The notes beneath the pieces are model-generated. The model was not told the DNA's origin. It did not search any database and saw nothing but the letters and a program-made list of their open reading frames with translations. From contig JAFSKY010000067.1 of assembly GCA_017448685.1 (NCBI GenBank), positions 1 to 35,550 of the forward strand: a stretch of DNA of 35,550 bases, given 5' to 3'. Of this stretch, positions 1 through 8,231 are shown piece by piece. The DNA is from Synergistaceae bacterium (GTDB lineage Bacteria > Synergistota > Synergistia > Synergistales > Aminobacteriaceae). The position numbers and the translations under genes are program-made. Numbering within the stretch: the stretch's first letter is position 1; each line of letters starts with the position of its first letter.

Positions 1-27
1 ACACCACACCACACCACACCACACCAC
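1..27. repeat. Pentanucleotide tandem repeat (ACACC)5 at window edge
   Basis: Five perfect copies of ACACC occupy positions 1-25, followed by a partial copy. The tract is open in the same reading frame as the downstream asparagine-synthase-like gene, where it would encode His, Thr and Pro residues. A five-base unit is not a multiple of three, so copy-number change would shift the frame. Because it sits exactly at the window edge, an assembly or contig-end artefact is a real alternative, and its true length is unknown. Confidence 0.75.
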
Positions 28-5895: not shown

Positions 5896-5923
5896 TTGAG
5901 GGGGATGATGATTTTGCTATAAT
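5896..5923 (+). promoter_or_regulatory. Promoter of the GT8 glycosyltransferase
   Basis: TTGAGG (5896-5901) and a perfect TATAAT (5918-5923) are separated by 16 bases, and TG plus one base precedes the -10, making an extended element. The predicted transcript start near 5930 leaves a very short leader before the GGAG at 5944-5949. Confidence 0.65.
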
Positions 5924-5957
5924 ACAATGCAACAATCCATGAAAGGAGAGATTGACA

Positions 5958-7052
5958 TTGACGGGTAAAGACAGTACAATCGCCCAACGCCCAACGCCCA
6001 ACGCCCAACGCCTAGACTCATGCCCAAAATCAGATGACACAATCCACGTAGCACTATGTGTATATGATCCATCAGGGATGTATTCACAGCACGCGGGAGT
6101 CGTAATGACCTCGATATTCGAGAACACACACAGCAAAGTTACCGTTCATATTCTCCATGATGACACACTCACAGATGACAACAGAAGGAAGTTCCTGCGT
6201 ACAGCGGAAAAATATTCACAGACAGTTGAATTTTACGATGTTACGGAATGCATGAAGAAATACGCGGGAAGCCTTGAGGCTTTGAGACAGGCAACAGGCC
6301 ATTATTCTATAGGCACTTTGTACAGGCTGTTTCTTCCTGACATGCTGGACGGAATCAAAAAAGTTATATGGCTAGACTGTGATGTGCTTGTCAGTCTGGA
6401 TATAAAAGAGCTGTGGGAAATTGACATGAAAGGAAAAACCTTCGCGGGCGTTTTGGACATGGTAGCTATGAAATATTACGATAGCTTTTACCGTAACAGA
6501 ATGGATGCCCTGCTCAAAGGAATTCCTCCTGATGAATATATCAATGCTGGAGTTATGGTTATAGACTTGGAACGTATACGGGAAAAAGTCAGCTTCTCGG
6601 ATGTCGCAATGAAATGGATTATTGATATGGGTAATCTCGCCCCTTGTACCGACCAAGACGCAGTAAATTCAATCTTTGCGGGTGATATATGCCTGTTGGA
6701 CACCAAGTTTAACCAGCAAAATATTTCCTCTGACACTCAAGGCTGTATGCTTCACATGTACAGCGGTAAGCCTTGGGCCTCCATAAGGGGCTTCCCGTCT
6801 GAGCGACTCTACTGGAAACTATACCTGCGTTCCGCATGGGGGGAAAATGCTCAGCCTGAAGACATCATAGACAGCATAATTGATGCAGCCGAAAAACAGC
6901 GCAAACGTTCTTCCCCAGCCCGCAAACCAGAAAATACCTTACGCAGGTTCGCAAAGAAACTTGTTTACGACATACTCCCGATGAGGTCAGTGAAATATAT
7001 CATCATACATACAGTTCACCATATGAAGCGGAAATTATCACAGTGCAGATGA
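5958..7052 (+). CDS. GT8-family glycosyltransferase with repeat in 5' coding region
   Basis: This is a retaining glycosyltransferase of family GT8 (LPS galactosyl/glucosyltransferase type), expected to add a hexose to a surface glycan at the inner membrane. Diagnostic features are HVALCVYD near the N terminus, the metal-binding DxD in [21 protein letters not shown], and FNQQN. The C terminus is basic and hydrophobic, suggesting peripheral membrane binding. I chose TTG at 5958 because AGGAG sits 9 bases upstream; TTG at 5952 is too close. No start codon exists between the heptanucleotide tract and the conserved core, so translation must begin before the tract. With four copies the frame is open, meaning an ON state. 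The gene ends 15 bases inside the convergent folP. Confidence 0.93.
5981..6012. repeat. Heptanucleotide repeat (CGCCCAA)4 inside a glycosyltransferase gene
   Basis: Four perfect tandem copies of CGCCCAA occupy 5981-6008, followed by CGCC. They fall in codons 8-18 of the GT8 gene. Gain or loss of one unit shifts the frame by one base, as in slipped-strand contingency loci. On the minus strand the same tract reads GGG four times separated by CGTT, a sequence compatible with a G-quadruplex. Confidence 0.97.
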
Positions 7053-8231
7053 CTTCACACCCTCAGCAACCCTCAAAGCCCGCATATTCTCCCCCACGTC
7101 ATGAACGCGCATAAGACTCACCCTTCCCGCCATCAACGCCGTAACCCCTAGAGTCCCCGCGAGAGTCTTCCCCGTGAACCTCTTGCGGGAATGCCCAATC
7201 ATTAACGGCCTCCCGAAAACTGTCAGGCTCTCAATATCCCTCAATACCGCGAAATTATCCCCTGAGTTTTTCCCGAAACCTAGTCCCGGATCTATGATGA
7301 TGTTCTCACGTTTAAGCCCAGCGCGTTCAAGCTCATGAATCTTCCCGGAAAAATACGCGTTCATTTCGCCGAGTATGTCAGAATACGGCTCTGAGTCGGC
7401 CATGTCTTTTGGAGTCCCTTTGATGTGTGAGAGTACGTAAGGCACATTGAGTCCCGCTACAATCCCGGCCATGTCGGAATCGAAGCCGAAGCCGCTTATG
7501 TCGTTTATGATGTCAGCTCCCTCATCACATGCAAGCCTCGCGATTTCAGCCTTGTACGTGTCAACCGAGATTAACGCGTCAGGAAATTCACGCCGTAACG
7601 CCCTCAAAGCAGGAATGAGCCTCCCGGCCTCCTCACTTGCTGAAACTGGAGAAGCTCCCGGCCTCGTCGACTCCGCTCCAACGTCAAGGATATACGCTCC
7701 CTCATTCAGGAATCTCCCAGCGCATTCGATTATTCCGGCTTCGTCCGTCCTGCTGTCAGGGTAAAACGAGTCGGGAGTGAGGTTGATTATACCCATCAGC
7801 TTTGTGTGTGCGTCAAGAATGATTTTATGCCCAGCTGGTGAGGTCATTTCCCATTTGTGTATGTTTACGTTCCTCAATGCCTCGCATAATTCCTCGCGCA
7901 ATTCCTTTATCCCCCAAATATTCATGGCCTTCATCTTCTCCGTGAGGCTTCTCAGCTGTGAGGGATTGCCCATAATCAGAATGTCGCTGTAATCCGTTTT
8001 GCCGTCAATGACATGTTTTGCCACAGCAACATCACCGCCCCTTGCAAGCATCTCTTGCTTCAGGAAGCCTGCCGCCCTGTAATCTATATGCCCTGCGTAA
8101 ATGTGAAGGATATTCGCTTTTGGTGTGAGGTATGGAAGTGCTCCGGGGTCTGTACCTATTTTCGCGCAGAGTCTCTTCATGTCGTCATGGCCGGAAATGT
8201 TCACGGGATATACTGAGATATTATTTTGCAA
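7038..8231 (-). CDS. folP: Dihydropteroate synthase, long form
   Basis: This enzyme condenses 6-hydroxymethyl-dihydropterin pyrophosphate with p-aminobenzoate in folate synthesis. The catalytic TIM barrel occupies about residues 140-395 and shows MGIINLTPDSFY, GAYILDVGAESTRPG, ISVDTYKAE, INDISGF, IIDPGLGFGK and GHSRKRF. About 130 residues precede it, with no motif I recognise beyond an alpha/beta pattern; such N-terminal extensions occur in DHPS of several anaerobic lineages. The start is TTG at 8231, with AGGAGG eight bases upstream. The stop lies inside the convergent GT8 gene. ThyX in this window depends on reduced folate, so the two genes belong to the same metabolic branch. Confidence 0.95.
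   Translation of the reverse strand: MQNNISVYPVNISGHDDMKRLCAKIGTDPGALPYLTPKANILHIYAGHIDYRAAGFLKQEMLARGGDVAVAKHVIDGKTDYSDILIMGNPSQLRSLTEKMKAMNIWGIKELREELCEALRNVNIHKWEMTSPAGHKIILDAHTKLMGIINLTPDSFYPDSRTDEAGIIECAGRFLNEGAYILDVGAESTRPGASPVSASEEAGRLIPALRALRREFPDALISVDTYKAEIARLACDEGADIINDISGFGFDSDMAGIVAGLNVPYVLSHIKGTPKDMADSEPYSDILGEMNAYFSGKIHELERAGLKRENIIIDPGLGFGKNSGDNFAVLRDIESLTVFGRPLMIGHSRKRFTGKTLAGTLGVTALMAGRVSLMRVHDVGENMRALRVAEGVKSSAL

Follow-up and report, generated by a model that had tools for sequence, protein, structure and literature searches.

The tandem heptanucleotide tract at the start of a GT8 glycosyltransferase gene in a 35,550-nucleotide stretch of Synergistaceae DNA (the window) is very probably a slipped-strand contingency locus from a set of phase-variable glycan genes that is spread over the genome and built on one module. 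The tract is not isolated: it is one of about fifteen look-alike modules, nearly all of which have an unexplained promoter-like sequence before the repeat. In order, the module comprises a putative extended −10 promoter (P1), a GGAG Shine–Dalgarno sequence, a second promoter-like element (P2, TTGACA-N17/18-TAYAAT) that overlaps the start-codon region, and a tract that abuts the −10 box of P2. Units would be gained or lost by slippage during replication, and each 7-nt step would shift the reading frame. This points to a large phase-variable repertoire in a single genome of uncultured ruminant-gut commensals, to which is added a leader-ORF form of the module in which an overlapping stop and start seem to control the following gene. 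No description of switches of this kind came up in a literature search that combined Synergistaceae with tandem repeats and glycosyltransferase.

Table 1. Features of the module in front of the GT8 gene and of the repeat at the left end of the window
Feature	Position	Strand	Basis
Putative upstream promoter P1, TTGAGG-N16-TATAAT, extended TG (TGCTATAAT, 5915-5923)	5896..5923	+	Sequence match
Shine–Dalgarno sequence AAGGAG	5943..5948	+	Sequence match
Embedded sigma-70-like promoter P2, TTGACA-N17-TACAAT	5952..5980	+	11/12 consensus positions; −10 box abuts the tract
Likeliest start codon (TTG), 9 nt after GGAG	5958..5960	+	Homologues have ATG/GTG/TTG here
GT8 glycosyltransferase ORF, class I module, ON with four units	5958..7052	+	PF01501
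Tandem tract (CGCCCAA)4 + CGCC	5981..6012	+	Direct inspection, repeat search
(ACACC)5.4 tract at contig end, in frame with ORF 2-1864	1..27	+	Repeat search

The window tract and its GT8 gene

Inspection confirmed the four perfect CGCCCAA units that a sequence-only reading of the window had reported, and added a trailing partial unit, CGCC (Table 1). Perfect arrays of at least 25 nt did not occur in any of 60 dinucleotide-preserving shuffles of the window. The ORF that contains the tract matches Glyco_transf_8 (PF01501, E 1e-39), and its nearest solved structure by sequence is LgtC (1g9r, E 4e-13). Alignment revealed that the aspartates of its DXD motif (D140 and D142, DCD) are invariant in 12 homologues; the gene thus combines the Glyco_transf_8 domain with the DXD motif, as CAZy asks of family GT8. 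It is flanked on the left by gyrA (3287 to about 5836) and on the right by a dihydropteroate synthase-like gene (7038-8231), both on the minus strand.

When the ORF was rebuilt with different numbers of units, it was full length at n = 1, 4 and 7 but reached only 9-35 amino acids with 2, 3, 5 or 6 units. This bears out the earlier proposals that every unit gained or lost breaks or restores the frame and that four copies represent the ON state. The same reading held that no alternative start exists between the tract and the GT8 core, which is correct for the core frame, where no start codon was found in this interval; an ATG at 6020 lies in a different frame and reads ATG CCC AAA ATC AGA TGA. 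Its TTG start with a good Shine–Dalgarno sequence is also present, AAGGAG included, although the assignment has to be refined, since two in-frame TTG codons occur (5952 and 5958). The second is favored, because its position is occupied by ATG, GTG or TTG in homologues. In an AlphaFold2 model of the enzyme, residues 1-25 have low confidence and the fold begins at about residue 28; the extension encoded by the tract is predicted to be disordered. Such an extension appears to be dispensable, because L019, a GT8 homologue beside gyrA with neither tract nor P2, keeps P1, the Shine–Dalgarno sequence and an ATG directly before the core.

Two further features of the window and its homologues were observed. 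Among GT8 paralogues and homologues, the first 60-75 residues past the tract are nearly identical (approximately 80% DNA identity) and the remainder is far more divergent; this conserved 5′ part (window 6042-6230) suggests recombination between GT8 paralogues. At the left end of the window, a 621-codon open frame with no Pfam match (ORF 2-1864) continues in frame from a perfect tract of ACACC pentamers, within which the contig starts, and the two are probably another phase-variable module, cut off by the assembly.

Reading frame and repeat turnover across the genus

In the window genome, 21 TTGACA-N15-19-TAYAAT sites were listed, 11 of which run straight into a tandem tract, and adding the window locus, contigs C229 and C31 and the left end of the window gives about 15 modules. 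Contig C229 carries a second GT8 gene, 47% identical to the first, with at least 11 CGCCCAA units, and begins inside that tract. GT8 homologues from other species of the genus have tracts at the same place with different units (CGACCAA, CGCACAT, CACGAGC, CACAAGC, GCAACGA, CAGGAAT, ACACGAC and one 8-mer). A search with GGAG-TTGACA-N15-19-TAYAAT returned up to a dozen matches per genome in 29 of the genus's 43 species; the reversed pattern, used as control, matched almost nowhere. Genomes from the rest of the order gave 0-3 matches each, these being counts of the promoter pattern and not of tracts. The module pattern therefore appears largely confined to this ruminant-gut genus of Synergistaceae. 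The relatives that have names are uncultured Synergistaceae; ruminants (goat, roe deer, red deer) predominate among their sources, and one is labelled Fretibacterium. A scan of viral contigs for a module with the unit CGCACAT gave no match, and hence no sign that the module is spread by phages.

The loci fetched contained 139 TTGACA/TAYAAT sites, 114 of them with a tract, and these 114 modules, a set selected on the promoter, were used for further analysis. These loci share ancestry; the counts therefore lack independence, and the evidence is weaker than the p values given suggest. Unit length is 7 nt in 102 modules, 5 nt in nine and 8 nt in three, and is never a multiple of three. When rotations are merged, there are 46 distinct units, none of which contains a stop in any forward frame; on the reverse strand, 15 of the 46 do. 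A start codon (ATG, GTG or TTG) lies 7-16 nt after GGAG in all 107 modules in which GGAG is close to TTGACA. The tract thus sits in a translated 5′ region with a unit that is not divisible by three, as in translational simple sequence repeat switches.

Two arrangements were found. In class I (57 loci, including the window), the tract runs directly into a long ORF and is fused to the enzyme, so that one phase in three would yield the product; 22 of these loci were assembled ON and 35 OFF. In class II (also 57 loci), the tract lies within a leader ORF of roughly 10-60 codons upstream of the next gene, and 10 loci are ON and 40 OFF, which is below one third and may reflect either a wrong choice of start codon or selection for OFF. 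Taken together, 32 of 107 assembled loci are ON by calls that rest on inferred, chosen start codons, a proportion that is indistinguishable from one third and fits the expectation for random phase.

Copy number, and with it the frame, differs between related loci: homologues in different species have between about 2 and 18 units, all counted in metagenome assemblies that are prone to break at the tract and with one genome per species. L030 and L080, for example, share 92% DNA identity after the tract but have 3.6 and 8.7 perfect units, respectively. The unit itself can also be swapped while its position and its length of seven are kept: AGCCAGA, CGCGACA and CGAACGC precede one type of GT4-like gene (75-77% DNA identity), and GCGAACA and CACGAGC precede one GT2-like gene (76% DNA identity). 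At least 13 contigs end on the tract side of a module, as against one on the opposite side, which is suggestive of variable tract length in the sampled populations or of repeat-induced assembly breaks.

This turnover between close homologues bears on the view that the tracts are stable or dead remnants, that is, ancient repeats of fixed copy number whose OFF copies are pseudogenes. A few loci (L043, L031 and L075) do have collapsed tracts or internal stops. However, perfect arrays are found in many unrelated units, out-of-frame loci mostly retain an otherwise intact open frame of 200-500 codons, and the ON share is close to 1 in 3, which makes remnants a highly improbable explanation. The frame-switching heptamer proposed from the window alone is instead supported by loci throughout the genus with tracts at the same place, varying copy number and a mixture of states, and phase variation at these loci is strongly supported by comparison of sequences, with states compared between loci and not within a population. 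In two GT8 homologues, L043 and L024, the tract is down to about one unit and is out of frame, and these could possibly be locked OFF; the conserved DPSG motif is altered in L043.

The Pfam tally for class I comprises GT2, GT4, GT8, bacterial sugar transferase (Bac_transf), acyltransferase-3, CDP-glycerol transferase, GT61, pyruvyl transferase and DUF4422, and that for class II comprises MBOAT, methyltransferases, GT4, GT2, radical SAM, nitroreductase, LicD and cytidylyltransferase. Most of these targets point to envelope glycans, and variation of surface glycans could be of use, for example, against phages, protozoa or host immunity.

Leader ORFs and the promoter-like element

The start of the controlled gene could be placed in 51 of the 57 class II loci. 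In 49 of these, the frame that stays open longest beyond the tract has its stop between −8 and +11 nt of the gene start, with 24 exact ATGA overlaps of stop and start, versus 16.5% and 4.3%, respectively, in control genes; the other two frames usually stop well upstream. The Shine–Dalgarno sequence of the class II gene is also less often unpaired than in control genes (0.17 versus 0.37, p 2e-7, a value overstated by the relatedness of the loci). A leader stop near or overlapping the start codon and a sequestered downstream Shine–Dalgarno sequence are the features expected in silico of translational coupling. We infer a frame-gated coupling, which the stop positions fit: in one phase of three, ribosomes would reach a stop codon overlapping or next to the start of the following gene, and translation of the leader to this stop would free the paired Shine–Dalgarno sequence. 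A role for the tract as a length sensor through pairing with this Shine–Dalgarno sequence was considered and rejected, as pairing is mostly with flanking and coding sequence and the tract accounts for 7% of it. In two class II loci of the window genome, L126 and L137 (contigs C43 and C147), GCG replaces the leader start codon that relatives have as ATG, GTG or TTG at 9 nt after the beginning of TTGACA, and this may silence the leader.

Class II could instead work by attenuation of the kind described for the pil1 operon of Streptococcus gallolyticus, in which a longer leader peptide prevents formation of a premature transcription terminator. There, too, a leader ORF carries the repeat and unit number decides where this ORF stops (PMC3894217). 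However, a hairpin resembling an intrinsic terminator was absent between tract and gene in 46 of 46 class II loci, and the leader ends at the start codon, in many cases through an ATGA overlap. Attenuation is thus quite unlikely, although a rho-dependent variant may operate; translational coupling is the reading that we prefer.

A P1-like extended −10 precedes GGAG in 84 of 113 modules, versus 25 in shuffles. GGAG lies directly 5′ of TTGACA in 110 of 114 modules, most of which were fetched with a pattern requiring GGAG. In the window, the two boxes of P2 (TTGACA, 5952-5957; TACAAT, 5975-5980) are 17 nt apart; the spacer is 16-18 nt across the module set, and the tract begins 0-1 nt past the −10 box in 103 of the 114. 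An unselected check gave the same picture: among the 15 CGCCCAA tracts for which upstream sequence was available, 13 are directly preceded by boxes with no more than one mismatch to TTGACA/TATAAT, as opposed to 0.2% of random positions. One of the remaining two has three mismatches, and in the other, L074, two variant units lie between the tract and TTGACA-N17-TAAAAT. By match and conservation, P2 is promoter-like and resembles a sigma-70 promoter.

Conservation of TTGACA merely as a start codon followed by a threonine codon was rejected, since L015, L041 and L030 have an early stop in the TTG frame or a GTG start, and the start of the GGAGG family sits 9 nt further on. Relative to the start, the −10 box is found in each of the three frames, with frame 0 dominant (76, 25 and 6), and a partial coding contribution to its conservation is possible. 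Downstream of the tract, many modules of both classes have a motif resembling TAATTATGCCCNAAA (for example, window 6013-6030) in different frames; it is loosely conserved and shows weakly in the column consensus.

P2 cannot give rise to a translatable class I message, as transcription from it is predicted to begin downstream of the start codon, and class II transcripts from P2 would be without the leader start. This raises the question of why the tract sits right after a consensus promoter that, in class I, makes no translatable mRNA of the gene. The tract might act on transcription or as a variable 5′ UTR, such that transcripts from P2 start within it and unit number tunes transcription or mRNA stability. 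This would be in keeping with the near-perfect sigma-70 promoter adjoining the tracts and with the separate downstream start of class II genes. It is difficult to reconcile with unit lengths that avoid multiples of three, with units that lack stops in every frame of the coding strand but not of the reverse strand, with class II stops located at the gene start, with the lack of an in-frame start between tract and core in the window gene, and with L019, where P1 and a Shine–Dalgarno sequence are enough; we give it very little chance of being correct. A more speculative role, which we consider unlikely, is that of a dedicated repeat generator, where RNA polymerase initiating or stalling at P2 promotes slippage and the repeated birth of 7-nt units. 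The predicted start site would lie approximately 7 nt past the −10 box, inside the first unit. Such a mechanism would explain why the tract abuts the −10 box, why unit length is nearly fixed and why units are exchanged between close homologues, all in genes whose expression P2 itself cannot drive, and would mean that the mutation rate of a contingency locus is set by transcription initiation at a dedicated element.

Comparison with known systems

Phase-variable LPS glycosyltransferases are familiar from lgtC of Neisseria and from the lic and lex2 loci of Haemophilus. The present modules resemble them in their GT8 enzymes of LgtC type, in other glycosyltransferases and in switching by slipped-strand repeats. 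They differ in having 7-nt units of many sequences on one shared promoter-leader module, whereas the LPS loci have units of 1-4 nt. The sequence-only reading had called heptamer units rare, which does not hold, as they are not rare among longer bacterial repeats (PMC4679880, reviewing earlier surveys). The intergenic TAACTGA heptamers of marine Beggiatoaceae resemble the present tracts in being direct repeats that precede, at short distance, many start codons of a single genome (PMC4679880). The Beggiatoaceae share one unit, proposed to be a post-transcriptional element, whereas here the unit varies by locus and follows a reading-frame logic.

For class II, a close parallel is provided by the pil1 and pil3 leaders of S. 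gallolyticus, in which GCAGA repeats lie in a leader ORF and unit number sets the leader end (PMC3894217). Both have a repeat-bearing leader ORF upstream of the controlled gene; pil1 and pil3 use a terminator hairpin and control pili, whereas class II has no detected terminator, a leader stop at the start codon and glycan targets.

A close counterpart of the window locus is neuO of Escherichia coli K1 (phage CUS-3), where the gene for a capsule O-acetyltransferase has an AAGACTC heptamer in its 5′ coding part; judged by repeat number, 65.6% of 64 complete genomes are in the OFF state (PMC13001214). Our search of viral contigs for AAGACTC tracts yielded a single likely neuO copy whose upstream sequence is included (L252), as well as two contigs with an intergenic tract; a −35/−10 pair abutting the tract was absent from L252, the one copy inspected. 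The two loci are alike in the 7-nt unit, the 5′ coding position, the switching of frame and a glycan-modifying target, but neuO is a single locus for a different enzyme, a polysialic acid O-acetyltransferase in place of a GT8 glycosyltransferase.
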